Source of the DNA: Ricordea florida
Lineage: Eukaryota; Cnidaria; Anthozoa; Corallimorpharia; Ricordeidae
Length of the DNA: 64,000 nucleotides
Assembly (NCBI GenBank): GCA_949710005.1
Contig: OX453276.1
Location: 2,443,701 to 2,507,700 of the forward strand
Reading direction: 5' to 3'
Under the pieces are notes generated by a model. The model saw nothing but the letters and a program-made list of their open reading frames with translations, was not told the DNA's origin and did no database searches. Position 1 is the stretch's first letter; each line of letters begins with the position of its first letter. The translations under genes and the position numbers were made by a program. This document shows positions 8,445-27,444 of this stretch, in pieces.

Positions 8445-8590
8445 AGTAGTAAAGGGGGTCACTATGGAACAAATCTAAAGCGCTGATTGGCTGCGAGATT
8501 TTGTGGAATGTTAGGAATGCAGTCAAACCGGTTTGGGAGTTTCGAAAACCGGTTTTTCGGGTTGACCTTGATTAACATGATTTGAGTGGG
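8445..8590 (+). repeat. Left terminal inverted repeat of element B
   Basis: It matches the reverse complement of 32639-32784 with only scattered mismatches. It contains AAACCGGTTT-type palindromic half sites. The similarity ends at ATTTGAGTGG. Confidence 0.95.
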
Positions 8591-8600
8591 AAAATATAGG

Positions 8601-8608
8601 ATATAAGG
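8601..8608 (+). promoter_or_regulatory. TATA-like box for the leftmost gene
   Basis: ATATAAGG lies just inside the terminal repeat, 46 nt before the ATG at 8655. Confidence 0.45.
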
Positions 8609-8654
8609 AGAAATTGAGTTGTAAATCTAAAATTGTTTTCTTTTCACGATAGAA

Positions 8655-9095
8655 ATGGATAGAGAAGTGAAAGATCTCATAGATGACAAGGTGGAAAAAG
8701 CAGTGGGAGTGTTTGCAGATCTACTGAGCACTTTTCAACTGGATATGGAGAGGGAACATGTGGAAGAGCGCATGAAAAGTTCATTACGGGGTGGTCAACG
8801 AGTGGATTTTCCCGAATGGGGTAAAAGAAAGGGTGATTGCAGTTTCAGAAGAGTCTGTTATGGTCCAAGAGTTACAAGAACAGGAAAACTGTGGAAGAAT
8901 GCCGAATGGAAGTTGGGAAGCACAGATTGGAATTACTGGGAAAGTGATTACGATATTGTTTGGAATGCAGCTAAAGCAAACCAAGAACTGTTGTGGAAAC
9001 AAACATGGTTGATTACTGCCGAATATGTGTGTGATCGTTATAGTCAAGATGTTATAAGAGATTATTATTACCCACCATTTGGAACGAGAGTGTAA
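8655..9095 (+). CDS. Hypothetical terminal protein of element B (146 aa)
   Basis: The first gene after the left terminal repeat. The helical acidic N-terminus (about 1-40) is followed by a Trp/Tyr-rich domain (WNYW, WKQTW) with no recognised family. It contains SLRGGQR, which fits the (M/L/I)xGG pattern cut by adenoviral-type proteases, but this may be chance. It ends with an AATAAA overlapping the stop region, so it is probably transcribed alone from the TATA-like box at 8601. Confidence 0.6.
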   Translation: MDREVKDLIDDKVEKAVGVFADLLSTFQLDMEREHVEERMKSSLRGGQRVDFPEWGKRKGDCSFRRVCYGPRVTRTGKLWKNAEWKLGSTDWNYWESDYDIVWNAAKANQELLWKQTWLITAEYVCDRYSQDVIRDYYYPPFGTRV

Positions 9096-9100
9096 ATAAA
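9095..9100 (+). terminator. Polyadenylation signal AATAAA
   Basis: AATAAA immediately after the stop of the 8655 gene. It faces the minus-strand signal at 9129-9134. Confidence 0.6.
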
Positions 9101-9128
9101 AACAATGATAGAGTTTCATGTTTGTGTG

Positions 9129-9134
9129 TTTATT
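9129..9134 (-). terminator. Polyadenylation signal, minus strand
   Basis: AATAAA on the minus strand directly after the stop of the 9136-9366 gene. Confidence 0.55.
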
Positions 9135-9135
9135 A

Positions 9136-9366
9136 CTATCCCTTATAATAAGTATAATTGTCTTTAAGAGCCTTGAATGCTTGACTGCCAGCCTTTCCAG
9201 CAATAGTCATTCCGGTGATTTCCGGTCCTGATAGGAACATGCCAACTCCTTCAGCAATCTTGTCAACCAGTCTGGGTTTGTATCGGAAATGAGCTCCACC
9301 ACGCATAGAGCGCCTTTTTGTTTTTCTTCGTTTTCTTATGGTTCTTTTTTTCTTTTTGTTTGCCAT
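9136..9366 (-). CDS. Small basic core-type protein with protease site (76 aa)
   Basis: Residues 2-20 are almost all Lys/Arg, followed by SMRGGAHF, an exact match to the adenovirus protease consensus (M/L/I)xGG-x. The C-terminal part is a mild amphipathic helix. This layout recalls precursors of small DNA-condensing core proteins such as adenovirus pX. The ATG at 9366 is preferred over the upstream TTG because it overlaps the stop of the preceding 45-codon frame (TGATG), suggesting coupled translation. Assignment to a virion core role is inference. Confidence 0.6.
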   Translation of the reverse strand: MANKKKKRTIRKRRKTKRRSMRGGAHFRYKPRLVDKIAEGVGMFLSGPEITGMTIAGKAGSQAFKALKDNYTYYKG

Positions 9367-9503
9367 CAAATCCAATTTCTTTTCCAACTTCCGATGAAAG
9401 GTGGAGGTCGCTTGTAACGTTCAACGAGTTGCTTTAGAGTGGGTTTTCCACCGTATTGTCGCTTTCTTTTAAATTTCTTTTTAGTGTGGCGCCTTTTAGG
9501 CAT
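9366..9503 (-). CDS. Very small basic protein (45 aa)
   Basis: Too short for most ORF finders. It has about 16 Lys/Arg residues, starts MPKRRHTKKK and contains RQYGGK, one of several QxGG sites in this element. It ends in TGATG, overlapping the start of the 9136-9366 gene by one base. Probably a core or DNA-packaging peptide. The overlap and composition support coding. Confidence 0.5.
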   Translation of the reverse strand: MPKRRHTKKKFKRKRQYGGKPTLKQLVERYKRPPPFIGSWKRNWI

Positions 9504-9540
9504 TGTGTGAAATGAAGGGAAAGAAGAAAAGGAGTGTGTA

Positions 9541-9546
9541 TTTATT
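9541..9546 (-). terminator. Polyadenylation signal for the exon array
   Basis: AATAAA on the minus strand directly after the stop of the last array exon. It could serve all array transcripts if they are 3' co-terminal. Confidence 0.55.
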
Positions 9547-9547
9547 A

Positions 9548-9793
9548 TTAGGGTGGGAGAATACTCAAAACGCTTTCCCAGTTTGTTATTTGTTCAGGGG
9601 ATAATTCAACTTCCCAATCACTATCATTCATATCATGGTATCGTTCATCTTCATCTAGGGAATCCCAGTAGTTATCATCATCGCTATGATAAGGTAACCA
9701 GTTATAGGGATAATTATCAGGTCTAGAATTCTCATCATCATCATCACTGTTATTATTGGGTTCATCATCATCATCACTGTTATCGGGTTCATC
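9548..9793 (-). CDS. Array exon 19 (last): acidic tail, 81 codons
   Basis: Acceptor TTATTACTTAG. Phase 0. Asp/Asn-rich repeats (NSDDDDE twice) then a Trp/Glu-rich C-terminus ending in LPP. Followed by AATAAA, so this is the distal exon. Confidence 0.6.
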   Translation of the reverse strand, partial: DEPDNSDDDDEPNNNSDDDDENSRPDNYPYNWLPYHSDDDNYWDSLDEDERYHDMNDSDWEVELSPEQITNWESVLSILPP

Positions 9794-9859
9794 CTAAGTA
9801 ATAAAAAGACACAAATCCCATTTGTGGTAACCTGTTGTTTAATGAGAAGTAACATAGTT

Positions 9860-9988
9860 TTACAACAAAGTGCAAAGATAAAGCTTATATATGTTTGGTT
9901 GAAACGCAACTGGCAGTTCAGGATAATAAAGAATAACGGTTTGATTATGGGCATCAACCCATGGAAAAGCGTGGAAATCATTTGTTCC
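9860..9988 (-). CDS. Array exon 18, 42 codons
   Basis: Acceptor TTGTTTTGTAG. Phase 0. The pattern NDFHAFPWVDAHNQ then ILYYPE resembles exon 17, so the two arose by exon duplication. Confidence 0.55.
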   Translation of the reverse strand, partial: GTNDFHAFPWVDAHNQTVILYYPELPVAFQPNIYKLYLCTLL

Positions 9989-10148
9989 CTACAAAACAAA
10001 TAACGGGTTGATTAACAAAACCGTGTGTTGTAATATAATCTTCAATTTCAGTTCGCACTCTTTCATCTTGAGGGAGATATTGAATAAAATTGCCTTGACT
10101 ATCTTGATAAAAGAATCTTACAATGTCATTATCATCATCACTTGTAGC
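9978..10148 (-). CDS. Array exon 17, 56 codons
   Basis: Acceptor TTTCTCTTAG. Phase 0. NDIVRFFYQDSQGN then IQYLPQD parallels exon 18. Its frame overlaps the acceptor of exon 18 by eleven bases. Confidence 0.55.
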   Translation of the reverse strand, partial: ATSDDDNDIVRFFYQDSQGNFIQYLPQDERVRTEIEDYITTHGFVNQPVICFVGNK

Positions 10149-10179
10149 CTAAGAGAAAAAAAAGATAACCTAGTATCAC

Positions 10180-10296
10180 TTAAGGTGATATTGATGAAGA
10201 TAAGGTCATTTGTTCAAAGAAAATCATATAGTCGGGGAGATGAGTAATTTGTTGATATAAAGTACGGTAATCTCTATCATCTCCCTGGTATTCACC
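10180..10296 (-). CDS. Array exon 16, 38 codons
   Basis: Acceptor TTTTTTCTTAG. Phase 0. Tyr/Asp-rich start and Ser-rich end. No family recognised. Confidence 0.5.
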   Translation of the reverse strand, partial: GEYQGDDRDYRTLYQQITHLPDYMIFFEQMTLSSSISP

Positions 10297-10315
10297 CTAA
10301 GAAAAAAGAAATGTT

Positions 10316-10509
10316 TTACTGTAAGGATAAAATCTTGAACTGCCAGAAAATACTAGTACAACCTTTACAATCACAGAAACTTAATACATCAGTCATATTG
10401 TAACAATATTCGCAATCACAACCGCAATAACTGTAACGATCAACATCTTTATTACATTCTTCACATTGACAGAGGGGTCCGTTATCTTGACTATCTTGAC
10501 TATCTTCAA
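10316..10509 (-). CDS. Array exon 15: cysteine-rich tail, out of phase
   Basis: The coding frame has 12 Cys in paired form (CQCEEC, CGCDCEYC, CDCKGC), suggesting a metal-binding knuckle. The obvious AG at 10510-10511 would enter it two bases out of phase, unlike the other 18 blocks. This could be a short indel in the repeated AGATAGTCA stretch, an unusual acceptor or a different donor phase. Confidence 0.45.
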
Positions 10510-10539
10510 CTTGATACAAAGTAAAAGAAAAAAAGCTAT

Positions 10540-10713
10540 CTATGCTTTCCTATTTCTAGTGCTGTATATCATATACTGAGCTATTTGAGCCATAAAGTGT
10601 TGAACTATGAAATCCGTCGCTGGCGGAACTATAGATATCTTGTATCTTAACATATATCTGTAAGAAAAGAATAGTATTGCAGCTTTTAGGCTCGTCTCTC
10701 TAGGATATGTTTT
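10540..10713 (-). CDS. Array exon 14, 57 codons
   Basis: Acceptor TTCTTTTTTTCAG. Phase 0. The block contains no GT between its start and the inner AG at 10658, so it cannot be a short internal exon there. Helical, paralogous to exons 10-12 (RYMLRYKISIVP region). The inner acceptor at 10658 also opens a 33-codon frame, perhaps a coincidence. Confidence 0.55.
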   Translation of the reverse strand, partial: KTYPRETSLKAAILFFSYRYMLRYKISIVPPATDFIVQHFMAQIAQYMIYSTRNRKA

Positions 10714-10730
10714 CTGAAAAAAAGAAAAAA

Positions 10731-10811
10731 TTATCGGTACTGTCTTACAAGGCTTATCAACAAGTTATGGTGAAATTGTAAATAACGTCTTCTTTCTTCC
10801 TCGAGCTTGGG
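10731..10811 (-). CDS. Array exon 13, 26 codons (shortest)
   Basis: Acceptor CTTCTTTTTTCAG. Phase 0. Basic helix, starts PKLEEERRR. Resembles the C-terminal part of exons 10-12. Confidence 0.5.
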   Translation of the reverse strand, partial: PKLEEERRRYLQFHHNLLISLVRQYR

Positions 10812-10827
10812 CTGAAAAAAGAAGAAA

Positions 10828-10989
10828 CTACCTGAATCTTTTTATAATGCCTCTTAACAAGTGCAGTTGAAAATCAAAATCTTCGGTTATATGTTTTCGT
10901 AAGGGTAACTCTACTAAACGCAACCATTGGTGTTGTTTACGCGTTTGATACTGAACAAACCATATGCTTGCTTGAATCTTTGCGTATAT
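10828..10989 (-). CDS. Array exon 12, 53 codons
   Basis: Acceptor CTCTTTTTACTAG. Phase 0. VELPLRKHITEDFD aligns with DIPLIEHLIDDLAD of exon 11, so it is a paralogue. Confidence 0.55.
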   Translation of the reverse strand: MYAKIQASIWFVQYQTRKQHQWLRLVELPLRKHITEDFDFQLHLLRGIIKRFR

Positions 10990-11163
10990 CTAGTAAAAAG
11001 AGGTAACAAAAAAATGTGCTCTTTGTAATCGTTTTAACATGAGTTTCATATCAGCTAGATCATCAATAAGATGTTCAATCAATGGTATATCTGATTGCTT
11101 TAGGTAATTGGATCCATATCGGCCACATAAGAATCTTGCACATGCCTTGTTCTCTCTTTGAAT
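10990..11163 (-). CDS. Array exon 11, 57 codons
   Basis: Phase 0. Its stop TAG is also the acceptor AG of exon 12. It shares DIPLIEHLIDDL and a following Leu/Lys helix with exon 10 (DLPVIEHICDDL). Confidence 0.55.
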   Translation of the reverse strand: MQRENKACARFLCGRYGSNYLKQSDIPLIEHLIDDLADMKLMLKRLQRAHFFVTSFY

Positions 11164-11313
11164 CTATCGAGAAACAATTAATCTTCTTAATCTGCACCTT
11201 ACAACTCTCAGATCGTCACAAATGTGTTCGATCACAGGCAGATCTGCATATGGAAAATGAGTTGCATATCGACGGTACAGAGAATTTGTACATTCTCTAG
11301 TCTTAGAGAATAT
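11164..11313 (-). CDS. Array exon 10, 49 codons
   Basis: Acceptor TTTCTCCATAG. Phase 0. Its stop TAG forms the acceptor of exon 11. Clear paralogue of exon 11 from start to end (RRYATHF then DLPVIEH then RCRLRRL). Confidence 0.55.
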   Translation of the reverse strand: MFSKTRECTNSLYRRYATHFPYADLPVIEHICDDLRVVRCRLRRLIVSR

Positions 11314-11331
11314 CTATGGAGAAAAGAAAAG

Positions 11332-11493
11332 TTACGAGTAATCATAAGACAAGTTGTAACACCATCCAATTCTACTCTGAATGAACACAAGTTCATTATG
11401 CAATGCATCTGCACAATCCTTCATCATTTGTGTTACTGCTTTATCGCGTTTGTTTATAACATAATTGGAACACTCATCAAACAGTCCATAAAT
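11332..11493 (-). CDS. Array exon 9, 53 codons
   Basis: Acceptor TTTTTTTCATTCGTAG, formed by the stop of exon 8. Phase 0. Mixed helical, starts IYGLFDECSN. Confidence 0.5.
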   Translation of the reverse strand: MYGLFDECSNYVINKRDKAVTQMMKDCADALHNELVFIQSRIGWCYNLSYDYS

Positions 11494-11619
11494 CTACGAA
11501 TGAAAAAAAGGACAAATGCTCACATAAACCCAATCTAAATCTTGGAGCAAAGGTGAGCTTGAGGAGATGGAGTATTCGCATGCAATGTAGTTAGTGAGTT
11601 CGATAAGGTCATTCATGAT
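11494..11619 (-). CDS. Array exon 8, 41 codons
   Basis: Acceptor TTTTTTTACAAAACAG. Phase 0. Ser-rich middle (SISSSSPL), hydrophobic end. Confidence 0.5.
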   Translation of the reverse strand: MMNDLIELTNYIACEYSISSSSPLLQDLDWVYVSICPFFHS

Positions 11620-11648
11620 CTGTTTTGTAAAAAAAGAAAAAAAGAAAA

Positions 11649-11825
11649 TTAATCATCCCACAGGATGTCATAAGGTGAAGGGGGCATAACATAATGAAGT
11701 TGTGAAATACAATGTGTTAAGTAATTGTGAACATTCACAATTAAATCTTTCTCATCATCGCCTACTGTTCTTGGCAACATATCAAACAAAAGATAAGACG
11801 AACAGGAGTCCATAGATTCTGTTAC
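11649..11825 (-). CDS. Array exon 7, 58 codons
   Basis: Acceptor GTATTTTTCTTTAG. Phase 0. The start VTESMDSCSSYL resembles LTRSIDSCYNFL of exon 6, so probable paralogues. Confidence 0.55.
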   Translation of the reverse strand, partial: VTESMDSCSSYLLFDMLPRTVGDDEKDLIVNVHNYLTHCISQLHYVMPPSPYDILWDD

Positions 11826-11846
11826 CTAAAGAAAAATACGATAGAA

Positions 11847-12032
11847 CTATAAATAAGAATAATCATGCTCATATCGTAAAGTGTTTACTATATTCCTACA
11901 ATCGAATATTTTATCTCTTGCGCGTAATAAATCAAACATGTGAAATAAATCATGTTGAGTAGGATATCCTGCCAGCACTGTATAGTATCTATCACTAAGG
12001 AAATTGTAGCAACTATCAATGGATCGCGTCAA
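11847..12032 (-). CDS. Array exon 6, 61 codons
   Basis: Acceptor CATCTTTTACAG. Phase 0. Both other frames stop within five codons, so phase 0 is required if it is coding. Confidence 0.55.
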   Translation of the reverse strand: MTRSIDSCYNFLSDRYYTVLAGYPTQHDLFHMFDLLRARDKIFDCRNIVNTLRYEHDYSYL

Positions 12033-12056
12033 CTGTAAAAGATGAAAAAAAAAGAA

Positions 12057-12347
12057 TCAATCATCTAACGGTTGGTCATCATCATGATACAAAAATAAAT
12101 GAGGATCTATTGCCATTATACAAAGCAAGTTTTTTGCTATTTGACAAAAACAATTGATATCGTGTTGATAATGAAATCTATCACAATGAGAATCAATGCT
12201 GTCAATGGCCTCACTATAAGTTCTTGCTCTTGGTTGCAAAACAACTGAATTAAACAGATGAATCAAACTCATGCCCATTGATTGTAAGTATCTTCTGAAA
12301 TGATGCGATTGAATGTTTAGAGTAAAACGATGTACACCATCCAAGAG
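12057..12347 (-). CDS. Array exon 5, 96 codons (longest)
   Basis: Acceptor TTTCTCTTTTCAG. Phase 0. His/Cys-containing helical domain with an acidic end (HDDDQPLDD). No phase-0 GT lies in its last 200 nt, which argues against it being an internal exon. Confidence 0.6.
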   Translation of the reverse strand, partial: LLDGVHRFTLNIQSHHFRRYLQSMGMSLIHLFNSVVLQPRARTYSEAIDSIDSHCDRFHYQHDINCFCQIAKNLLCIMAIDPHLFLYHDDDQPLDD

Positions 12348-12362
12348 CTGAAAAGAGAAAAA

Positions 12363-12548
12363 TTATAAGAGATTGTGTTCTCTAAGTAGAAAGAAAGAAG
12401 GCTTCTTAACTGTTTCAAATAAAAAATTTATTACAAGCTCTTTATAAATATTTAAAGTTGAAAAATGAAGTGCCTTTAGATCTCGAAACACTACAAATGA
12501 TTTTTCAATGATCATTTCCGAGCTGCTATATCGTAATTCAGGATACAT
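12363..12548 (-). CDS. Array exon 4, 61 codons
   Basis: Acceptor TTTATATCTTCCAG. Phase 0. It begins with ATG by chance or design. Helical, Phe/Leu-rich C-terminus. Confidence 0.5.
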   Translation of the reverse strand: MYPELRYSSSEMIIEKSFVVFRDLKALHFSTLNIYKELVINFLFETVKKPSFFLLREHNLL

Positions 12549-12563
12549 CTGGAAGATATAAAG

Positions 12564-12674
12564 TTATCGAATATTCCTTTTATAAATGTGAATAATCTTA
12601 TATTGATGTCCATGGATTTTTGTACTTATCACTGTATTCGCAGGAATTTGATAAGCGTGAATATCAAGTAGAAC
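12564..12674 (-). CDS. Array exon 3, 36 codons
   Basis: Acceptor TTATCTCTCTCTTAG. Phase 0. Starts VLLDIHAYQIP, Ile/His/Lys-rich end. Confidence 0.5.
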   Translation of the reverse strand, partial: VLLDIHAYQIPANTVISTKIHGHQYKIIHIYKRNIR

Positions 12675-12875
12675 CTAAGAGAGAGATAAATAAAAAAAGA
12701 AAAATAAGTTGTGGATGCTGAATTGTGTTTTTAAACAAAAAATAATTATGTTTTTTGCGGCCTCCATCCTCCCCTTACAGCCGCCCCTAACCTCACATAA
12801 AAACTTAAATATTTACACTGTGGCCTCCATCCTCCCCTTACAGCCACCCCTAACCTCACGTCGGCCAAAACAAAA
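12675..12875. repeat. Gap in the array with a duplicated GC-rich segment
   Basis: Two copies of a GGCCTCCATCCTCCCCTTAC segment about 62 bp apart (near 12758 and 12820) in otherwise AT-rich DNA. It looks like a small insertion between array exons 2 and 3. No coding potential. Confidence 0.5.
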
Positions 12876-13079
12876 TCAACAACGAAGCATCCACAACAAA
12901 TCTATAACTTCTTTTATAAAAACTGGAGTCACAACTGCATCTTCATGAGTAGCACTCTCTAACAGCTCTCTTATCATGTAATAGTTATAAAAAAATCTAT
13001 AAGGATCGACAATAGTTGTGTTTTGTAGTAGCACCTTAAACTTAAGGGTAGATTTGGTTGCTTTTAGTTTAACCAGTGC
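12876..13079 (-). CDS. Array exon 2, 67 codons
   Basis: Acceptor ATTTTTTGTTATAG. Phase 0. Mixed alpha/beta composition, starts ALVKLKATKS. Confidence 0.5.
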   Translation of the reverse strand, partial: ALVKLKATKSTLKFKVLLQNTTIVDPYRFFYNYYMIRELLESATHEDAVVTPVFIKEVIDLLWMLRC

Positions 13080-13092
13080 CTATAACAAAAAA

Positions 13093-13278
13093 TTAAAAGC
13101 AGAGTGAGTCAAAAAGAACTTTTCTTTCATAATACTGAAGGGGTTTGCAGGCAAACCAACAATCCATACCTATACATATTGCCTTTTGTAATAGATTTAG
13201 AGTTACGCGTTCAATAAATGAAGATGCTACATATCTCTGCTGTTTATCCATTAGATAAAGAACGAGTTCGTTATAAGT
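13093..13278 (-). CDS. Array exon 1 (first after the RING gene), 61 codons
   Basis: Acceptor CCATTTTCTTTTATAG lies only 32 nt beyond the RING gene stop. Phase 0. Helical, starts TYNELVLYLMDK. Confidence 0.55.
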   Translation of the reverse strand, partial: TYNELVLYLMDKQQRYVASSFIERVTLNLLQKAICIGMDCWFACKPLQYYERKVLFDSLCF

Positions 13279-13310
13279 CTATAAAAGAAAATGGAAAAAA
13301 AGTTTTAACA

Positions 13311-14108
13311 CTAACTATATTGTAAATTGTTTAAACGAGATTCTAAATTACTTATATACCGATATAAGTAGTACAAGCAAAAACACAGTATGAGCCAAAC
13401 ACATACCATAGAAATAGAAAGGGTTATGTTTGCTCTTCTTCTTACTTGTCTTAATCTTACTCTTACCAAACGAATCCTGCGTTGGAATTCAGGGTCAGCT
13501 AGCAAAGCATCGGTAGCCTGTTCCGAGACCATGATATAAGTTGAAGGAAACTGTTTCCTACAGTGTGGGCAGTCAAATCGGCGGCTATCCAACCATTGAT
13601 GTAGACAACGATCGCATAGAGGCTTTTTGCAACACGGTGTGGGTGGTGATTCGTGTCCTTCAAAGCATACCAGGCAAGGTCCAGTAACGGGTGGATCTCT
13701 TGGGATATCCCTTTGCGGCTCAGCAGCACCGTTATTGGCATTATTGGTACTGGTAGAACTGCTATTGGAAGCTCCCAAGTTTTCGTTAGCAGCTAGTTCA
13801 TCATCAGTATCCTCTGCCCCCTCAGTTGTGGAAGATCGATGATCATCTTCCTCAGGTGTGGGAGGTGGAGCTGGTGTGGAAGAATCATTCTCAGATGGGG
13901 AAGATTGATCCTCAGATGCATCCTCAATCGGTGCTGCTGTTGCTGCTGCTGCTACAGTTGTATCCTCAACTGGTGTTGCTGGTACAGTTTCATCTACAAC
14001 ATTCAATGAAGGATGATCATTAGATGTTGTAGATGATTCACCTGGTTCATCAAAGTTGAGGCGCCTCTTAGCACGATATGCACGGGTTTGCATCTTTCGT
14101 TTGGGCAT
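13311..14108 (-). CDS. RING-type zinc finger membrane protein, candidate common 5' exon of the array
   Basis: A 265-residue protein. The N-terminus is basic (MPKRKMQTRAYRAKRR, NLS-like), followed by a long acidic Ser/Thr/Pro linker, a RING-like domain (C145-x2-C148, C159/C160, C165-x2-C168, C180-x2-C183; the usual His position is Lys), a basic helix 207-226 and one membrane segment 235-252. RING domains of this layout usually act as E3 ubiquitin ligases. Four donor-like sites at codon boundaries (after residues 214, 216, 221 and 234) would remove the membrane segment and join array exons in frame. TATA box at 14214-14221. The unspliced mRNA encodes the anchored form. Confidence 0.85.
   Translation of the reverse strand: MPKRKMQTRAYRAKRRLNFDEPGESSTTSNDHPSLNVVDETVPATPVEDTTVAAAATAAPIEDASEDQSSPSENDSSTPAPPPTPEEDDHRSSTTEGAEDTDDELAANENLGASNSSSTSTNNANNGAAEPQRDIPRDPPVTGPCLVCFEGHESPPTPCCKKPLCDRCLHQWLDSRRFDCPHCRKQFPSTYIMVSEQATDALLADPEFQRRIRLVRVRLRQVRRRANITLSISMVCVWLILCFCLYYLYRYISNLESRLNNLQYS
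13401..13467 (-). promoter_or_regulatory. Cluster of four phase-0 splice-donor-like sites
   Basis: On the minus strand, TTG/GTAAGA (exon end 13467), AGA/GTAAGA (13461), CAA/GTAAGA (13446) and ATG/GTATGT (13407). All four fall exactly between codons of the RING gene, matching the phase-0 acceptors of the array. The last lies directly before the membrane segment. Confidence 0.55.
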
Positions 14109-14429
14109 TTTTCCGCAGGAAAGGAGTAAAAAACCTTGAAGTAACTAGTAAAAACCTTGCTTGCACTCGTAAAGGTCAGCCAAGTGAAGTGATGAGTCTG
14201 GAACGGGTGCTCACTTATATAGGGCTCGAAAAAAACCGGTTTGACGAGTTCGTGGTCAGAAAAAGGGAGGGGGGTGGGGGGTACCCCCTCCGAAAAAACC
14301 AGAATAATTAAAAGAAAACCGGGTTAACTAGAAAAAAGACTGGTAAAACAGGGTGAGGTTCTAGTATGGATAGGGTATAAAAGAGGGCTATGGGTACCGT
14401 TTGATATCACAAATTGTGAAACTGGAAAG
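14109..14429. promoter_or_regulatory. Divergent promoter region between RING gene and the 14430 gene
   Basis: No coding potential. It contains a minus-strand TATATAAG (14214-14221), a plus-strand TATAAAAG (14376-14383) and an AAACCGGTTT-like half site (near 14233) also found in the terminal repeats, plus a G-rich run (14263-14281). Confidence 0.65.
14376..14383 (+). promoter_or_regulatory. TATA box for the 14430-PolB transcription unit
   Basis: TATAAAAG 47 nt before the ATG at 14430. Confidence 0.65.
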
Positions 14430-15062
14430 ATGCATGAATCGGAAGATGAAAAGAGTGTAGAAGCTCAATTTTGGCGAGTGTTTTGTGAGTGTGTTTGGGA
14501 TAAGGTTAAAGTATTAGCAAATGAAGCCTGTTATGGATGTTCCCATAGAAGTTCATATGAACAAGACCATAGTTGTAACATGGAGGATGAAGACAAGATT
14601 TCAAAGTTTATTGGAAAAGCAGTGAATTGTGTTAAGTCATCCAATGTTGTTACTTCATGGTTAAAATCATGTTGTATTTTGGGTTTTACAACCCAGGAAG
14701 TTCTTCAATGTAATAAGGAATGGGTGAATTATCAGTTCAATCGACCGGATCTGGAAAATGTGTTGTTGAGTTTGATGATTGAAGGTGAAAAGGAGAGTGA
14801 TGATGATGATCATGTTGTTGATAATGATGATGATGAGGATAATGTTGAGTTTGAGGAGGATGATGATAGTGATGATGATCGTCTTGTTGTGGATGATGAG
14901 TTTGAGGAGGAGAGTGAAGAATCAAAGGAGGAATTACTTCAAGCAGTAGCCATGCTTGAAGAACAACTACAACAGCAAGAACAAGAAAGAGAGGGGCAAG
15001 TTATGAACGATGATTGGGTTATTCAACCGGGTGCTTTTGAGTGGGATATGTTCGATTTCTAA
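14430..15062 (+). CDS. Acidic protein with C-x2-C-x(12)-H-x2-C motif, upstream of PolB
   Basis: A 210-residue protein. A conserved-looking CYGC ... DHSC motif (residues 35-50) recalls the small zinc-like motif of proteins encoded beside PolB in cnidarian Polintons. The second half is a long Asp/Glu stretch (about 122-175) and a Gln-rich helix. Function unknown. Its 3' end overlaps the long open frame of PolB, and the PolB region starts at a splice acceptor 28 nt after this stop, so the two genes may share a promoter and be separated by alternative splicing. Confidence 0.7.
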   Translation: MHESEDEKSVEAQFWRVFCECVWDKVKVLANEACYGCSHRSSYEQDHSCNMEDEDKISKFIGKAVNCVKSSNVVTSWLKSCCILGFTTQEVLQCNKEWVNYQFNRPDLENVLLSLMIEGEKESDDDDHVVDNDDDEDNVEFEEDDDSDDDRLVVDDEFEEESEESKEELLQAVAMLEEQLQQQEQEREGQVMNDDWVIQPGAFEWDMFDF

Positions 15063-15090
15063 AAAAAGTATTATACTTATATTTTTTTAG

Positions 15091-18000
15091 TGAACAAGTT
15101 GGAGGTAAAAGGAAGAGAGTAGAAGAAGGAGGCCGTTATACTCTAAAGGAACAGAATAGGCGTAACATTCCGAAATTCAAGACAACTGGAGTTGATTATC
15201 ACTTAACCATCGATATTCCCGAAGCAAGATCCGTTCGAGAAGGAACAAGTAACTTAAATGGTGTGCTGGAAAGTGCTATCACTGACATGACACGAGGAAT
15301 GAATGCACGAGATCAAATTCGATTTGTTATGCAAACACGAGAACTATCCTCTCCGATCAGCTTGCCTTTCATGCCTGTGGAACATTTTACAGCACAGAGA
15401 GTAATGTTTGAGGTGGAAAGAGTTCTGCAATCATATGAGGATTTGTATGCGAATCAAAGATTTGATGTGAATCTAGTACATGTTGCTCCTCCTACTGGGG
15501 GTGGTAGAAGAAAAGTGATTAACATGGGAAAACGGTTAAAGGAGAAGAGGTGTTTTATTCGTATCAGGAATAAAGATGAATTGTGTATGGCAAGAGCTAT
15601 CGTAGTGGGAATTGCCAGACTAGAGAAAGATCCGAAATACGATATAATTCACCAGGGAAGGCCTATTCAACGAGAAAGAGCTTTAAGTTTACATGAACGA
15701 GCGGGTGTTCCTTTACAAGCATGTGGTATTGAAGAAGCGAAGAAATTTCAAGCCATCTTACCAGAGTACCAATTAGTCATTGTTAGTGCAGAGCAATTTA
15801 ACAGTATCATTTACAAGGGGCCTACCAAGGAAAAAGTCATTTACTTATATTTACATGATGGTCATTTTGATTTGATTACCTCCATGCCTGGATTCATGGG
15901 GCGCGTTTATTATTGTTTAGAATGCGAAAAGGGTTATAATACCGAAGAGGGAAGACATCATCGGTGCAAGAAGAAATGCTTATCTTGTTTTCAAGAAGGA
16001 TGCTCTGGGGATATATCGTCATGGATTTATTGTGCTTATTGTAGAAGATCATTTCAAGGTCCTGGTTGTTTTGAGAATCATCGTCGAATGGGACCACAAG
16101 GGGGTATTTCTGTTTGCAAACAGTATCTGAAATGTAAAGATTGTGGTAAAATGTTGGATCGAACTCAGCGGGATACAAGATTACATAAATGCGGGGAAGT
16201 GTTGTGTCATGTTTGTAACAAGTTTGTTGAAAAAGATCATCAGTGCTACATGCAAGTACCGAAACAGAAGAAAAAGAGAAAGAGGGATGATGAAGAGGAT
16301 TTGTATTTGTTTTTTGACTTTGAGTGTACACAAAACACAGGCAAACATGTTCCTAACCTTGTGGTAGTACAGGATCAACATGGAAAGGAATGGATCTTTA
16401 AAACCTGTAAAGCTTTTTGTGAATGGTTATTTGACAAAATGCCAGGAGCAACCTGTATTGCACATAATTTTAAAAGATGTGACTCCTACTTTATTTTGGA
16501 TTACTTGTACAAGAACAATGTGAAACCAACTCTTATCATGAACGGAGCTAAGATCATGGAGATGCGAGTTCCAGATGTGGGGATACGTTTCATTGACAGT
16601 TTAAATTTTTTTCCTATGGCCCTTGCAAAATTACCCAAAACATTTGGGTTACAAGAATTGAAGAAAGGTTATTTTCCCCATTTTTTCAACACAGAAGAAA
16701 ACCAGAACTATGTGGGACTCATCCCTGCTGTTGAGTACTATGACCCTGAAGGTATGAAACCAGATGTGCGTAAAGTATTCCTTAACTGGCATAAAGAACA
16801 AGAAGCAAAGAAGGTGGAGTTTCGCATGCAAGAGGAACTCGTGAGTTATTGTCGTTCAGATGTGGACATTCTGCGTCGATGTTGCTGTCATTTTATCAAC
16901 ACCGTGAAAGGGTTGTGTCATATCCACCCTTTTAAAGAAAGCATGACCATAGCATCGCTATGTAATTTAATTTTTCGTTCTATGTTTCTTAAAGAAAAAA
17001 CCATCGCAATTATTCCTCATCTTGGCTACAGAAAGAAAGCAAATCAATCACACTGTGCTTATCAATGGCTTGCGCATATGGCACAGAAGGACAATGTTTT
17101 CATCCGTCATGGTAGAAACGAGGGAGAGAAGCGAGTGGGCCCTTATCTGTTGGATGGATATTGTGAAGCCACTCATACAGCCTACGAATTTCATGGTTGT
17201 TTTTATCACGGTTGTATAAGGTGTTTTCCCGGTACTACCATAAATCCCATAAATCAGTGTTCCATGTATGAACTTTATCAGCACACATTGGAAAGAACAG
17301 ATTATCTAAAGAAACAAGGAATTGAAGTGGTGGAGATGTGGGAATGTCATTGGCAAAAGTTACTAAAAGAGGATGAGGAAGTGAAAACATTCGTGGATGC
17401 ATTACAGTTTGTTTCACCTCTGAATCCACGAGATGCATTCTACGGGGGTAGAACAAATGCTACAAAGCTGCTTGTTGAGAATAAGAAGATGAATTATGTG
17501 GACTTCACGAGTTTGTACCCCGATATTAACAAGAACGGGTTGTATCCAATAGGGCATCCCAGAATAATCACGGACAATTTAGATCCTACAGAGATCAGTC
17601 AGTATTTTGGAATCATCAAATGTGATGTTCTCGCACCCCGGGGATTGTATCACCCAGTATTACCGTTCAAGAGCAATAACAAGCTTATGTTTGCATTGTG
17701 TCGCACCTGTGCTGAAGCATTACAGAAAACTCCCTGTCAACACACAGATGAAGAGAGAACTTTTACCGGAACATGGGTGAGCTTAGAACTGGAGTTAGCT
17801 CGTGAAATGGGTTATCGTGTTGTTCGGTTACATGAGGTATGGCATTTCGAACAAAAGAGCCAAACTCTGTTTAAAGAGTACATCAACATGTTCTTAAAGA
17901 AAAAACAAGAAGCCTCAGGCTGGCCTAGCTGGTGTGAAACCGATGATGACAAAACGAGATATATTGAAGAATATCATGAGCATGAGGGAATTCTATTGGA

Positions 18001-18745
18001 ACGAGAACACATTCAACATAATGCAGGGGCAAGAAGCGTTTGGAAACAAATCTTGAACAATATGTGGGGAAAGCTTGGGCAGCGCCCCAAAAGACCTAAG
18101 TTAGAAGTGATCAACGATGCAAAGCGTTACTTTGAGCTGTTTACGAGCTCCAGTGTGAGTATAAAAGATGTTCATCTTGTTGCTGATGAAATGGTGGAAA
18201 TTTGCTATACTCAAGAGAATGATTTCGTGGAAGCTTCTGACAGAACAAATGTGGTGTTAGCTGCATTCACCACAGCTCAGGCAAGAATGAAATTATATCG
18301 TGTCATGGCAAAGCTGGGTGAGAGAGTCTGTTATTATGATACAGACAGTATCATATATATCTCAGAGGAAGGTCAATGGGAACCTGTACTGGGTGATTAC
18401 TTGGGGGAACTCACCAACGAGCTGGACAGTGATGATCATATTGTAACATTTGTATCAGCTGGACCCAAAAATTACGCCTATAAAACATACAAGGGAAAAG
18501 TTGTATGCAAGGTTCGTGGATTCACCTTAAATGTGCGAACTGCAGAAAAAGTAAACTTTCATAGTATGGTGGACATGGTACGAAGTGAACAATGCGAACC
18601 CGTTACAGTTCACAATCCTCACAAGATCATGCGTAACAAGAAGAGTAAACAAGTAGTTACTCAAGCGCAAGACAAGAGATATAAGCTTGTATATGACAAG
18701 CGTGTAATCATAGAAGATTATAACACATTACCCTACGGGTATTGA
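15091..18745 (+). CDS. polB: Protein-primed DNA polymerase B (pPolB)
   Basis: About 1,217 residues. A Cys/His-rich zinc region (near 15915-16255) is followed by exonuclease motifs FDFECTQ (Exo I), AHNFKRCDSYFIL (Exo II) and YCRSDVDIL (Exo III). A nuclease-like insert with EFHGCFYHGC comes next, then polymerase motifs DFTSLYP (A), KQILNNMWGKLG (B) and YYDTDSIIY (C). Replicates linear element DNA from a terminal protein primer. No ATG precedes the conserved N-terminal region. Instead a strong acceptor (ATATTTTTTTAG) ends at 15090, entering mid-codon, so the first exon must lie upstream. The donor was not identified. Confidence 0.95.
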
Positions 18746-19030
18746 ACAGGCAGCCAAAGTAAAGTGAAGTAAGGTGTTTTTTAGTGAATATTATCATTTC
18801 TTTTTTCAGTTCCTTTGGGAGCACATCTAGGTTTTATGGATACCCCTTTTCTCTTTGTTCTTCTTCTTCTGTTCCTTTGGCAGCCCAGTCAATTCGAAAA
18901 TGTTCAGCAACTCTGTTGATTTCTGGTAACGACGGATCTCACGAAGAGCGAGAGGGAATGTTGGTTAGCTATATAGGTTACAAACGCATCTTCTTGACCT
19001 TCAGAACTGCGAAAAGCTATATGTTAGAAC
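18746..19030. other. PolB-integrase gap, no confident gene
   Basis: Contains a second intron-like acceptor (TTTCTTTTTTCAG ending near 18810) and a short Ser/Phe-rich frame that I do not trust. It may hold 5' parts of the integrase transcript. Confidence 0.4.
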
Positions 19031-19360
19031 ATGAAAAGGATAAAACTGCTTCTCGCGCGTAAAATTGCAAGGATAGAACCAGAGATAGATCGGTTAGTGA
19101 GAACCGAACTGTTGAACATTCCTCGTTGCTGTTATCCTTATTCGGTATCGGAACTAAAGAACTGTTGGAGAAAAGTAGAAGAAACGAAACCTGTTTATTG
19201 GAGTCATGTTGCAGTGTATATACGAATGCTTGACTTTTTATCATTACCGCCCTCACGAAAAAGGTACATGTTGGAATGGATAAGGGAACAAAACATGTCA
19301 CTACCCAGTTTGCCGTGGTTGCTGGTGATCTACATGTACAACTACATAAGAGCACCATAA
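19031..19360 (+). CDS. Hypothetical small protein (109 aa) before the integrase
   Basis: The N-terminus is basic and helical, followed by a Trp/Tyr-containing central part (CWRKVEETKPVYWSHVAVYI) and a hydrophobic C-terminus (LPWLLVIYMYNYI). An opposite-strand frame covers the same bases, but codon use and the ATG favour the plus strand. No family recognised. Confidence 0.4.
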   Translation: MKRIKLLLARKIARIEPEIDRLVRTELLNIPRCCYPYSVSELKNCWRKVEETKPVYWSHVAVYIRMLDFLSLPPSRKRYMLEWIREQNMSLPSLPWLLVIYMYNYIRAP

Positions 19361-19494
19361 AGGATTAAGGCTTATTAGTGTTACAATGCCTTGCATGGGG
19401 CGCGGAGCTCTACCGTCTGTTACTTTTAGAAACTTGTTTAAGCGCATCAAGTGTCATATCGCCTGTTGTAAAGGAGTTGTGATTGAGATTGTTG

Positions 19495-20631
19495 ATGACC
19501 AAGAGGAGTATGAAGACGCGTCGAAAACAGAAGAAATGGAAGACGGAACGACAGGCCATACCCATGTTAGAAAGGTTATACTACACACCAGGAAAACCTG
19601 CTGCATTTGTTGGCGCCAAGCGATTGGTTGGTACCGCGCGCGTAAAAGGAATCAAGCCATCGATATCGAGGAAATGGCTCGAATCGCAGGTTCCGTATAC
19701 CTTACACAAGCCTGTGCGAAAGCAGTTTAAACGCAGCAGAGTAGTGGTTAACGGCATGGATGAACAGTGGCAAGCAGATCTTGTGGATGTACAAGCATTG
19801 AAAGGGGAAAATGATGGATTTCGTTATCTTTTAACGGTTATTGATGTTCTTTCAAAGTATGCATGGGTGGTACCTTTGAAGGATAAGACGGGTAAAAGTT
19901 TGGTGGATGCTTTTGAGCACATATTTAAAGAAGATGGGCGTGTACCAGAGCGTTTACAAACGGATAAAGGAAGTGAATTCACAAATCGTCAGTTTCAAAA
20001 GTTTTTGGAATCCAAACATGTGCAACATTTTGTCACGTACAGCGATACAAAGGCTCAGATTGTGGAGCGTTTTAATAGAACCATAAAGACACGCATGTGG
20101 CGATATTTCACTCAAGCGAATCATTATCGTTATCTGGATGTGTTAGATAACCTGATGAAGAGTTATAATAGTTCTACGCATCGTAGTATCGGTACAGCAC
20201 CCGATCGTGTAACTCAGGAAAATGCTCAAGAGATATGGCACTATTTGTATGGAGATGATTTTGTGAAACGAGTAGAAAGAATGCGCTACAAGTTCAAGGT
20301 GGGTGATCAAGTACGGATTGCTAAAGCACAGGGTGTTTTTGCAAAGGGTTATACGCCCAATTGGACAGAAGAAGTTTTTACCATAGCCAGGCGTAACCGT
20401 ACCACAGTTCCCACTTATAGACTAAAGGAATATGACGGTACAATGTTAAAGGGGATGTTTTACGAAGCTGAACTGGAACGCGTTCAAAGCAAGGAGAGTG
20501 ACTTTTTCAAAATAGAGAAGATTCTTGATACTCGCGGTTCTGGGCGTAGAAAGGAATATTTAGTAAAATGGCGAGGTTGGCCAAGTAAATATGATCAATG
20601 GATTCCTGCTAGTTACGTGAAGGATGTGTAA
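19495..20631 (+). CDS. RVE-family integrase with C-terminal chromodomain
   Basis: About 378 residues. A basic N-terminal zinc/helix region (YYTPGKPAAFVG) precedes the RNase H-like catalytic core with the D,D-x(35)-E triad (QADLVD, QTDKGSEF, QIVERFNR). An SH3-like region (KFKVGDQVRI) and a chromodomain (FFKIEKILDT then EYLVKWRGW) follow, which would steer insertion to methyl-lysine-marked chromatin. The GTG/TTG-type upstream frame is discarded; ATG 19495 is the first in frame. Inserts the element and makes the 6-bp duplication. AATAAA overlaps the stop. Confidence 0.95.
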   Translation: MTKRSMKTRRKQKKWKTERQAIPMLERLYYTPGKPAAFVGAKRLVGTARVKGIKPSISRKWLESQVPYTLHKPVRKQFKRSRVVVNGMDEQWQADLVDVQALKGENDGFRYLLTVIDVLSKYAWVVPLKDKTGKSLVDAFEHIFKEDGRVPERLQTDKGSEFTNRQFQKFLESKHVQHFVTYSDTKAQIVERFNRTIKTRMWRYFTQANHYRYLDVLDNLMKSYNSSTHRSIGTAPDRVTQENAQEIWHYLYGDDFVKRVERMRYKFKVGDQVRIAKAQGVFAKGYTPNWTEEVFTIARRNRTTVPTYRLKEYDGTMLKGMFYEAELERVQSKESDFFKIEKILDTRGSGRRKEYLVKWRGWPSKYDQWIPASYVKDV

Positions 20632-20636
20632 ATAAA
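20631..20636 (+). terminator. Polyadenylation signal after integrase
   Basis: AATAAA overlapping the integrase stop codon and followed by T-rich DNA. It separates the replication/integration genes from the capsid genes. Confidence 0.6.
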
Positions 20637-20668
20637 GAAAGAGTTTTTATATTTATTGAATCATTGAT

Positions 20669-22024
20669 ATGAACATGTTGGCCCGAGAGGATTTCTACTT
20701 GATCCTTCCGAGTAATACTCCCAGTAACCACTATTGGGATAACAGACCACATCACTACAAAATCGAATTGCCTCAAGAGATTCTACTACAAGGAGAGTGG
20801 GAAGTTGGAGTTACTGAAATTTCCTTTTTTAAAACATGGTATCAACCTCCGAAGATAATTCTCAATGAAACCAGTGATTTAACTTGGCAATATAGCACTG
20901 GTGAAGGGAATCCTTTTGTAACAAACAAGCTACCCCCTGCACCATATCTTGGTTACTACAATATCTTTGAACACGTAGTAACTGCTATGAAGCATGATTT
21001 GGCTGGGAGTGGTGTTACTACTTATCACTACTCTAAGCACTACTCCTATCCTACAACATCACGAACGGTGCGTTGGAGCCTCCCAGTTGGATATGTTCTT
21101 AAGATTCCAATATCTATGGCAAGAATATTGGGTTTTGTCGCCCTGAAGCATCCGGAATACCCACAACTGTCTAAAAGTTATGTGAAAATTGCACCTTTCT
21201 TATCTTACCCGGATATCTACAAAATAACAGAGGAAGGAGAAAATACTGTGTTTGAGATTCATAATGATGATGAGAATGAACCGCTTCTCGTGTTTTTCCA
21301 ACCTATGATGGAGATGACAGATGCGGATATGGATTTCAGTGTTAGTAACAGTGACATTGAACAAGATTGGTTATCTACTCTTGCTGATGTGGAAGATTTT
21401 TATTCTTATCGTTTCCGTGTTATGTTCAAGGAGTTCGCGAAAAAGTCATTTTTTCAAGAGAAATACGGGATTGAGATGAACTATGAAAACGACAAAGAAA
21501 GATATCGTTTGGATCTTCAACCAGGTGCTTCCATTCGAGTATCGTTAGCCCTAGCGCGCATCATGGGTTTTGTGGATTTCAACGGTAACATTAGAGCACC
21601 TTATAGGGATGGGAGATTTAGATTGGATTTATCACTTTCTCGTATCATGTTTGTGATTATGCCTCGCCAAAATGCCTGGACCTTGTATGTTAGCCCTCCA
21701 CAAGGTGCAAGGAGAAGATATCGTCCGATTGACTATGATCCTATCAGTTCTTTCTCGATCGAGTCCAATTTAAATATTGAGCCGTGGTTCGATGGGTTTA
21801 AGAAATCGAGAGTATTGCAATGGATCACTCCAACTGACAATATTCCACAAGGGACACAGGAACACAAAGTGATTGAAAACATTCATTACCACGACCTGTA
21901 TGAGGATCGTTTACGCGAACTAGAAATTGTTTTAAAGGTTGATGCAGAAAAAGAAGTTCCATTTTATGCAGGAACCGTCACAGTAACACTTCATTTTCGA
22001 AACAAGGCGCACGTGATACCATGA
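20669..22024 (+). CDS. Penton-like minor capsid paralogue 1 (451 aa)
   Basis: It starts with the signature shared by four consecutive genes, FYLILPSN followed by an N-rich loop, a KIELP strand and GEWEVGVTEI. It ends with a VTVTLHFR strand. It is longer than its relatives because of an inserted middle domain (about residues 110-330) with RIMGFV-like repeats. Polinton penton-type proteins are single jelly-roll vertex proteins; the four copies could form a hetero-oligomeric vertex or fibre. The stop overlaps the next ATG (ATGA). Confidence 0.7.
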   Translation: MNMLAREDFYLILPSNTPSNHYWDNRPHHYKIELPQEILLQGEWEVGVTEISFFKTWYQPPKIILNETSDLTWQYSTGEGNPFVTNKLPPAPYLGYYNIFEHVVTAMKHDLAGSGVTTYHYSKHYSYPTTSRTVRWSLPVGYVLKIPISMARILGFVALKHPEYPQLSKSYVKIAPFLSYPDIYKITEEGENTVFEIHNDDENEPLLVFFQPMMEMTDADMDFSVSNSDIEQDWLSTLADVEDFYSYRFRVMFKEFAKKSFFQEKYGIEMNYENDKERYRLDLQPGASIRVSLALARIMGFVDFNGNIRAPYRDGRFRLDLSLSRIMFVIMPRQNAWTLYVSPPQGARRRYRPIDYDPISSFSIESNLNIEPWFDGFKKSRVLQWITPTDNIPQGTQEHKVIENIHYHDLYEDRLRELEIVLKVDAEKEVPFYAGTVTVTLHFRNKAHVIP

Positions 22025-23031
22025 ATGAAGTAGCACCTTCGAGTTTTTATCTCTATCTACCAAGTAATGCGAGTACCGCTACATTTCCCAAAAATGGACC
22101 TAGCGGATATACAGTGGTTCTACCAAATCCTCTTGAATTGTATGGTGAATGGGAAGTGGCACTAGCCAGTTTCGTTTATCCTAATTCTTGGTACAATATT
22201 ATTGCACCTCTTGAAGACAAGATTGAACCGAATCATATTGGCAAATTTCTGGCGATGCGCAGTGTAGATCGTCGGGCTGATGATTACAAGGATAAGCCCG
22301 GATATTATAAAGGGTGGATGCCAATACATTTGGCTCCAGGTAACTACAAAACGATAAGAGATGTTATGAGAGGTATTGACAGGGCATTAAGAAAAGAATT
22401 TGGAGATGATGTGGTGAATGAAGAATGGCAAATTAAAGAAGTGGACGCTCATATAGAAGTGAAGATAAAAAAGATTTCAGGATTGGCTTTGAACAGATAC
22501 CTGTACACTGTTCTTAATATGAACAATCGTGTAAGAAGGCTTCCCCTCACTATCATAGGAGGAGTGGAATATAGCCCCATTGATGATGATTTCCCAGAAC
22601 CTACAACAGGACAATCTGACAGCAGTAACTATCTTGTATTCGGATGGGATGAATTTGATACTGCAGAGGAAATACCCAATGAAGCTGATTACGCAGATTA
22701 TCGAGTAGATCATAACGTAAATGACAAGGTGAATTGGTTCATTGCCGGTGTTAATGGAGCAAGCAGTTTTCAAACCATATACATCTATTCAGATGTGGTG
22801 GGAACACAGATTGTAGGAGATGTGAGAGCCAATGTGCTTCGTGTAATTGCACCAAGAGGGGAAACAAACGATATTATCAATGAAAACTTTTCCAAACTCT
22901 TTTACACTCCTGTGAGACTTAATCGTATAAGTAAGATTGAAGTGCTTTTAAGAGGCGACACAGGAAAAGCGATTTCATTCAAAGGAGGTGTTGTAACAAT
23001 CACATTGCATTTTCGTAAGAAAAAAGGATGA
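22021..23031 (+). CDS. Penton-like minor capsid paralogue 2 (336 aa)
   Basis: Same N-terminal signature (FYLYLPSN, VVLPNPLELYGEWEVAL, YPNSWYN). The C-terminal block IYSDVVGTQIVGDVRAN, LRVIAPRG and VTITLHF is nearly shared with paralogue 3. ATGA overlaps at both ends suggest termination-reinitiation coupling. A capsid vertex role is inferred from family and position before the MCP. Confidence 0.7.
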   Translation: MNEVAPSSFYLYLPSNASTATFPKNGPSGYTVVLPNPLELYGEWEVALASFVYPNSWYNIIAPLEDKIEPNHIGKFLAMRSVDRRADDYKDKPGYYKGWMPIHLAPGNYKTIRDVMRGIDRALRKEFGDDVVNEEWQIKEVDAHIEVKIKKISGLALNRYLYTVLNMNNRVRRLPLTIIGGVEYSPIDDDFPEPTTGQSDSSNYLVFGWDEFDTAEEIPNEADYADYRVDHNVNDKVNWFIAGVNGASSFQTIYIYSDVVGTQIVGDVRANVLRVIAPRGETNDIINENFSKLFYTPVRLNRISKIEVLLRGDTGKAISFKGGVVTITLHFRKKKG

Positions 23032-24823: not shown

Positions 24824-24824
24824 A

Positions 24825-25412: not shown

Positions 25413-25474
25413 AATTCTTCTCAAGGTTGAGAAAATATCATTCACACCTAGGAAACGATAACGTTCACATCATT

Positions 25475-26821: not shown

Positions 26822-26823
26822 TC

Positions 26824-27390: not shown

Positions 27391-27444
27391 AAAGAAGAAA
27401 GTTGTACAAGACAATTCATTTCACTGTTGGAAAGTGTTTCAATC

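Follow-up and report, generated by a model that had tools for sequence, protein, structure and literature searches.

A window of 64,000 nucleotides (nt) from the corallimorpharian Ricordea florida (GenBank assembly GCA_949710005.1, contig OX453276.1, positions 2,443,701–2,507,700) contains a complete Polinton/Maverick-type element in which a gene for a RING-like protein is followed, on the same strand, by an array of 19 short coding blocks. We consider it highly probable, on the sequence evidence set out below, that the RING exon is spliced to any one of these blocks as an alternative 3′ end. A single viral gene could in this way yield approximately 20 proteins with differing tails. An earlier note on this DNA had proposed such a joining, and the proposal is supported by the phase coherence of the blocks, the conservation of acceptors and frames, selection on the encoded peptides and the presence of the donor site in distant elements.

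Anatomy of the array

The RING-type gene that had been placed upstream of the array is an open reading frame (ORF) of 265 codons on the minus strand (14108–13311, positions of the window throughout), with its ATG at 14108. Its product begins with a basic N-terminus, continues through an acidic stretch of low complexity and a RING-like domain, and ends in a hydrophobic C-terminus. The 19 blocks lie downstream of it, also on the minus strand and reaching down to 9548, and each is open in phase 0 as far as its own stop (table 1). They are 26–96 codons long and cover 85% of the array. The gaps between a stop and the next block are at most 31 nt in 16 of 18 cases, the other two measuring 201 and 66 nt, and three TAG stops in the window double as the acceptor of the following block. 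Methionine is missing from six of the 19 blocks (those starting at 12674, 11313, 10989, 10811, 10148 and 9988).

A mechanical acceptor rule (YAG after at least 76% pyrimidine in 17 nt) finds 16 sites in the array. All 16 open a frame of at least 26 codons in phase 0, against three in phase 1 and one in phase 2, while 300 dinucleotide shuffles gave a mean of 4.5 sites and 0.68 such phase-0 frames, with a maximum of four. Fourteen of the sites are block starts; the remaining two, 12381 and 10657, are internal to blocks 4 and 14. When the chance of each of the 19 frame lengths under shuffling is treated as independent, their product is approximately 10^-34.

These results modify what was first claimed for the array. 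The earlier note described 19 blocks, each starting after a pyrimidine tract plus AG and ending at its own stop. The stops and frames stand, but five blocks (12548, 11619, 11163, 10510 and 9988) fall below the tract rule, and the block at 10510 is preceded by AA in the window, where the other 18 have an intact acceptor AG. Phase 0 had been assigned to 18 blocks; it holds for all 19 once two starts are refined, by comparison of copies, to 12548 (CAG/ATG) and 10510. The single ATG-starting block of that description is block 4, at 12548. The starts that these replace, 12551 and 10509, were rejected: the ratio of non-synonymous to synonymous change (dN/dS) in phase 0 is 2.15 from 10509, compared with 0.16–0.24 in the Cys frame.

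Pfam searches with 10 of the 19 blocks returned nothing near threshold. Resemblance between blocks within the window is mostly weak, with two pairs at p < 0.01 and 15 at p < 0.05 among the 153 pairs formed by 18 blocks (Cys-rich block excluded); paralogy here rests on blocks 10 and 11 and on a profile search, with decoys, for a family that we call SIDDC. The stretch between blocks 2 and 3 (12876–12700) contains G-rich direct repeats with several GTAAGG/GTGAGG sites.

Conservation and selection in close copies

A search of the 538 Mb genome with the RING protein gave 110 matches, 22 of which (including the window) are at least 81% identical. Of the 21 other close copies, 20 were compared together with 6 kb downstream, and one (L022) was read in its short locus only. 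Eighteen blocks retain the acceptor AG in every sequence that has the place (19–21 sequences each, counting the window and the 20 copies). For the Cys-rich block the acceptor (window 10512–10511) is AG in 18 of 19 sequences, the window alone having AA. Places are missing because of a run of N in L041 and an internal deletion in L038, which removes most blocks (window 12967–10116). Frame lengths are nearly constant across copies and stops fall mostly at the same place; block 14 is three codons short in two copies, and length varies somewhat in blocks 2, 3, 8, 9, 15, 16 and 18, and most in block 19.

Comparison of synonymous and non-synonymous change block by block, which had been suggested as a check, revealed purifying selection in phase 0 of all blocks. 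The set comprised 18 sequences, L038, L041 and L042 having been dropped (the match of L042 ended early beyond the array). Phase-0 dN/dS ranges from 0.14 to 0.56 over the 19 blocks and lies below both other phases in every one, save for a tie with phase 2 in block 3 (12674); a control gap (12870–12700) gives 0.79–0.96 in the three frames. Block 19 (9793) shows 23 stop cells in the alignment, because indels shift the aligned columns. Distinct indel events, counted in 17 copies with the window as reference, divide in the blocks into 17 in-frame and 15 frame-shifting (3160 nt) and in the gaps into 6 in-frame and 69 frame-shifting (603 nt). Eight of the 15 frame-shifting block events are in block 19, five near the end of the block at 11493, and one each in those at 10713 and 12032. 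The selection pattern suggests that each tail may have a stable job, and the low dN/dS among close copies argues against tails that change fast over that time span.

Homologous arrays in distant elements

More distant elements, whose RING identity in the matched part is 41–65%, were grouped by this identity and by block content, without a tree: group B (L024/L051, L025, L030 and others), group C (L052, L053, L056), group D (L054, L055, L057) and group E (L028). If the blocks were random non-coding DNA, homologous elements should hold neither frames nor matches; phase-0 arrays follow the other RING genes too, and many of their blocks are homologous to those of the window by BLASTP.

Eleven blocks were listed in group B from L024/L051. 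Nine of them correspond by BLASTP to blocks of the window and keep their order; of the other two, one lacks a window counterpart and one, B_3634, stays unmatched at the threshold used. Block 5 (12347) had no homolog among the group-B blocks read. The array of group E is like that of group B and partly decayed. Thirteen blocks were listed in L052, one of them (at 2549) doubtful on account of a longer frame in phase 2; BLASTP finds matches among them for five window blocks, including those at 13079 and 12347 (44%, E 9e-27) and the Cys-rich block (43%). A protein search with the Cys-rich block returned two ORFs, near identical to the group-C block. The phase-0 blocks of group D include a relative of the block at 12548 (L055, E 6e-5; L057, E 0.001), and a further one is 23% alike to the block at 13079, without a BLASTP match.

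The SIDDC profile, run against 50 shuffled decoys per block, picks out ten blocks, which come from three groups and include three of the window. Members of this family stand in tandem in group C, four each in L052 and L053 and eight in L056, some more than 90% alike; the eight in L056 occupy 2833–4210 of a copy that lacks the donor. Gain, loss and tandem duplication of blocks between elements are evident from these comparisons. Over 12 array pieces, with ends set by hand and near-identical copies included, the longest frame at 118 acceptor-like sites is in phase 0 at 97, phase 1 at 13 and phase 2 at 8.

Donor, promoter and poly(A) signals

Four donors had been put forward, at 13467, 13461, 13446 and 13407, all in phase 0. 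The first is kept in all 21 close sequences and stands; 13446, likewise present in 21 of 21, is a second candidate; 13461 holds in part (GTAAGA in 12 of 21, GT in 16 of 21); and 13407 was dropped, with GT in just 3 of 21. At the place of 13467, a donor is kept in 32 of 32 RING loci (L001–L004, L006–L030 and L052–L054). L005 lies outside this count, the search pattern having missed it, and its larger locus, L034, is within the 21 of 21. Adding L055 and L057, which have a donor, and L056, which has no GT, brings the count to 34 of 35. The donor reads GTAAGA in close copies and groups B and E, GTAAGT in L052 and L053, and GTACGT in L054, L055 and L057. No donor of the 13446 type was found at that place in distant loci.

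Twelve proteins from ENA contigs, which may derive from the same or related species, give a similar picture. Ten reach the donor point and nine of these continue with Val. The residue after it is Ser or Arg in seven (as GTAAGT/GTAAGR would encode), and in two the protein ends there; the tenth, P0002, has Leu-Arg. The donor sits where RING homology fades, in distant elements as well. Beyond it, the tail that would result from intron retention is hydrophobic in close copies and groups B and D, and short in group C.

The search for poly(A) signals covered AATAAA and ATTAAA only, and among these motifs no separate signal for each 3′ exon was found, the motif at 9546 being the lone conserved AATAAA outside the blocks. 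Conserved AATAAA motifs also occur within blocks at 12432 (16 of 18) and 10453 (18 of 18), and an ATTAAA at 9843, between the last two blocks, is kept in 18 of 18. The one conserved TATA box and the one conserved extra-block AATAAA bracket the unit, which suggests mRNAs that would be nested and co-terminal, with one poly(A) site in common.

Table 1. Features of the RING unit and of the element that carries it (positions in the window).
Feature	Position	Strand	Details
Common exon, 214 aa to ...QRRIRL	13467..14108	-	dN/dS 0.18 (18 sequences), RING similarity
Predicted retained-intron tail, hydrophobic (transmembrane-like) segment + stop	13311..13466	-	dN/dS 0.50, stop-free in 18 sequences
5′ splice site GTAAGA, phase 0, widely kept donor (13467)	13461..13466	-	21/21 close sequences; 34/35 RING loci
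Second donor candidate GTAAGA, phase 0 (13446)	13440..13445	-	GTAAGR 21/21; close copies only
TATA box (TATATAAG)	14214..14221	-	TATATAA in 20/21 sequences, TATATAG in one
AATAAA right after last stop	9541..9546	-	20/20 sequences with the place; sole conserved extra-block AATAAA of the unit
Block 1	13093..13278	-	61 codons; homologs in groups B, E
Block 2	12876..13079	-	67 codons; BLASTP homologs in B, C, E; resemblance alone in D (23%)
Block 3	12564..12674	-	36 codons; homologs in B, E; dN/dS similar in phases 0 and 2
Block 4	12363..12548	-	61 codons, ATG start; internal AG before 12381; homologs in B, D
Block 5	12057..12347	-	96 codons; 44% homolog in C
Block 6	11847..12032	-	61 codons; SIDDC family; frame shorter in L032
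Block 7	11649..11825	-	58 codons; frame, conservation, dN/dS
Block 8	11494..11619	-	41 codons; TAG stop = next acceptor
Block 9	11332..11493	-	53 codons; homolog in B
Block 10	11164..11313	-	49 codons; SIDDC family; TAG stop = next acceptor
Block 11	10990..11163	-	57 codons; paralogous to block 10 (BLASTP 4e-8), SIDDC family; TAG stop = next acceptor; weak pyrimidine tract
Block 12	10828..10989	-	53 codons; frame, conservation, dN/dS
Block 13	10731..10811	-	26 codons; frame, conservation, dN/dS
Block 14	10540..10713	-	57 codons; internal acceptor-like AG before 10657
Block 15, Cys-rich	10316..10510	-	64 codons; AA acceptor in window; dN/dS 0.24; homologs in B, C
Block 16	10180..10296	-	38 codons; homolog in B
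Block 17	9978..10148	-	56 codons; overlaps start of block 18
Block 18	9860..9988	-	42 codons; frame, conservation, dN/dS
Block 19, acidic	9548..9793	-	81 codons; homolog in C
Complete Polinton/Maverick-type element	8445..32784	.	Terminal inverted repeats, GATGGA, PolB, rve + chromo integrase, C5 protease

Splicing model and its alternatives

Joining of the RING exon to any one block is preferred because, of the models considered, it alone explains the phase 0 that the donor shares with all 19 blocks together with the conserved acceptors, frames and stops, the selection, the distant donor, the 13 blocks that have no good donor and the six that have no Met, and the arrays behind other RING genes. 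Transcription would start near the TATA box at approximately 14220, cross the RING exon and the entire array, and end past the AATAAA at 9546. The spliceosome would use the donor at 13467, which follows codon 214, and perhaps that at 13446 as well, and would join the RING exon to any phase-0 acceptor, of which the family has 19 and the window copy 18 intact. Translation would end at the first in-frame stop, giving proteins that share the N-terminus and RING and differ in a tail of 26–96 residues, whereas a kept intron would give a product with a hydrophobic, probably membrane-anchoring tail. The tails would most likely be partner- or target-binding modules of a protein of the RING E3 (ubiquitin ligase) type.

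The DNA itself shows the layout of the unit, its conservation and phase coherence, selection on the coding frames, homologous arrays in distant elements, and duplication and loss of exons; from it we infer splicing in cells, co-terminal mRNAs, E3 activity and what the tails would bind. E3 activity is plausible, and we put it and target swapping forward conditionally because the RING is non-canonical, without the usual His, and no tail has a known partner. That the tails choose the targets of an E3 is, in our judgement, somewhat more probable than not. A fuller picture, in which a RING body with approximately 20 tails has a membrane form through intron retention, the tails steer ubiquitination to host or rival proteins and the set changes by duplication and loss, has in our view about an even chance of being right.

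Several observations weigh against this model. The internal sites at 12381 and 10657 have good pyrimidine tracts and keep their AG in each of the 20 sequences that cover them, and define no block; their minor use is possible. Block 6 has 28 codons in L032 rather than 61. In the retained tail, sites at 13352, 13360 and 13316 have a similar donor match count, none of them in phase 0, and six conserved sites outscore 13467 on a simple 5′-site score: two within the RING exon (14042, in phase 1, and 13671, in phase 0), the candidate at 13446, and three in the G-rich gap (12860, 12855 and 12792). In L056 the donor GT is gone although the array has expanded; this may be a dead element. L054 fits poorly, phase 0 being longest at one of three sites, and the hand-set ends and near-identical copies behind the 118-site count belong here too. 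As for the RING, the zf-RING_2 match (E 0.0017 for the window protein, 7.2e-5 for P0002) lies under the Pfam cut-off in all five proteins tested, and, set against the cross-brace ligand patterns C3HC4 and C4C4, the usual His ligand is replaced by other residues in a divergent site, CCxKPLC. Two AlphaFold models are of low confidence (mean predicted local distance difference test scores of 56 and 58). Foldseek returned mostly RING/U-box entries, a list that we leave out as proof because its best E is only 0.18.

The RING data bear directly on the alternative that splicing is real and the RING dead or structural, with tails serving localisation or assembly and not the choice of ubiquitination targets. 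The missing His and the divergent site fit this alternative, as do hydrophobic and acidic tails and the low dN/dS, which suggests constant partners. However, the remaining zinc-ligand cysteines are all present in the window protein, with an extra Cys adjoining C3, and most homologs retain Trp172, Pro181 and Arg184, at positions where known RING E3s make contact with E2 or ubiquitin. A PDB profile search with the RING gave UHRF2, UHRF1 and RNF8 as best sequence matches (E 1.1e-6 to 6.8e-6), from which the present domain differs in its substituted His ligand (CCKKPLC); no further Pfam domain in the protein scores above cut-off. On balance, we regard a dead or structural RING as possible but unlikely.

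Spliced-leader trans-splicing of a polycistronic unit, each acceptor beginning a small separate gene, would suit the T-rich tract and AG before each frame, and a leader ending in AUG could likewise impose phase 0 throughout. It leaves unexplained why the RING gene keeps a phase-0 donor, and also why the arrays read follow such a gene, although this second argument is weak because all loci were found through the RING. With six blocks lacking Met, one alone starting with it and the first residue not retained as Met between homologous blocks, we consider separate genes very improbable. Hardly more credible, and if anything less so, is the chaining of blocks as internal exons into one long mRNA. 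The spacing is exon-like, and of the 22 sites that score best as donors some fall within six of the 19 blocks (11524, 11203 and 10749 are examples) and several in the gap after block 2. Because most gaps are so short, however, the donors would need to sit inside the frames; 13 blocks contain none of the 22 sites, every block ends in a largely conserved stop, and three stops form the next acceptor, so serial exons are unlikely. Chance open frames in AT-rich non-coding DNA, where T-tracts are common, have a negligible likelihood and are rejected by the shuffles (at most 4 frames against 16), dN/dS, the indel pattern and the distant homologs.

Relation to known systems

The proposed splicing of one RING exon to many in-phase tails recalls lola, in which common exons are joined to one of many alternative 3′ ends; the common part of lola and mod(mdg4) is a BTB domain. 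For mod(mdg4), more than 30 isoforms are reported, the 3′ exons being driven by promoters of their own and attached through trans-splicing (PMC12692577). The likeness, judged here from DNA, lies in common exon(s) with many alternative 3′ ends, which in the Drosophila genes give dozens of C-terminal variants; the present blocks differ in being 26–96 codons long and mostly 0–31 nt apart, under one TATA box and one conserved extra-block AATAAA, in a virus-like transposon. The parallel with lola drawn in the earlier note holds for alternative 3′ ends and probably fails for separate terminal exons, since the blocks resemble nested acceptors served by one poly(A) site. Adenovirus units (major late, E1B, E3/E4) combine one donor, many nested acceptors and a common 3′ end, most of their 3′ exons carrying their own AUG. 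They share with the array a compact viral unit, nested acceptors and a related virus lineage, whereas in the array every acceptor matches the phase of one shared coding exon, the blocks encode tails only and the set grows by exon duplication.

Polintons are placed close to the origin of several lineages of eukaryotic DNA viruses, and we know of no combinatorial E3 of this type in any virus or transposon. Among the literature matches listed, titles and abstracts held no comparable RING/tail system, in a search that most subscription papers fell outside; within those matches, the view that no such Polinton system had been described stands. The element has terminal inverted repeats (TIRs), a 6-bp duplication, PolB, integrase and protease in common with vertebrate Mavericks/Polintons and polinton-like viruses. 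Intact vertebrate Mavericks are reported to lack introns (PMC8097293), cryptophyte polinton-like viruses have group I self-splicing introns, unlike the present kind (PMC12220804), and for adintovirus pentons alternate C-termini have been proposed to arise through frameshifting, another mechanism (PMC11071296).

If the fuller picture is true, spliceosomal introns would occur in an element class whose intact vertebrate members reportedly lack introns, and alternative splicing would act as the targeting switchboard of a virus-like mobile element. Some 19 swappable tails in less than 4 kb would show that a small viral genome can gain a protein repertoire through alternative splicing. The array would further offer a natural, duplicating exon library for studying tail evolution and the host factors that a mobile element must handle.

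The Polinton and its surroundings

The Polinton host proposed for the array is complete in the window, at 24,340 bp. Its TIRs (8445–8564 and 32665–32784) are 94% alike, and GATGGA flanks both ends as a 6-bp target duplication. Pfam matches identify a type B DNA polymerase (DNA_pol_B_2, 2.6e-46), putatively protein-primed, an integrase (rve, 8e-17, with chromo, 5.1e-10) and an adenovirus-type protease (Peptidase_C5, 6.4e-7). A candidate packaging ATPase matches AAA_14 under the cut-off (6.6e-5), and a candidate capsid ORF (25457–26818) has no Pfam or PDB match. Searches of IMG/VR with the RING, PolB or a 13-sequence RING alignment found no relatives. The PolB ORF has no near ATG, and a T-rich tract with AG lies just before it, at 15060–15100; a 5′ exon for PolB, joined by splicing, may lie in the preceding ORF.

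At the right end of the Polinton, approximately 5.6 kb of element and flank stand in two tandem copies (30367–41732) of 99.7–100% identity, representing either a recent duplication or an assembly artefact. Outside the element, positions 1–8444 hold a second virus-like gene cluster, with a Pox_A32-like ATPase (1097–1756, E 1.2e-13) and a Rho_N gene (7442–7930), and a large NACHT-LRR gene lies on the minus strand at 55086–58478.

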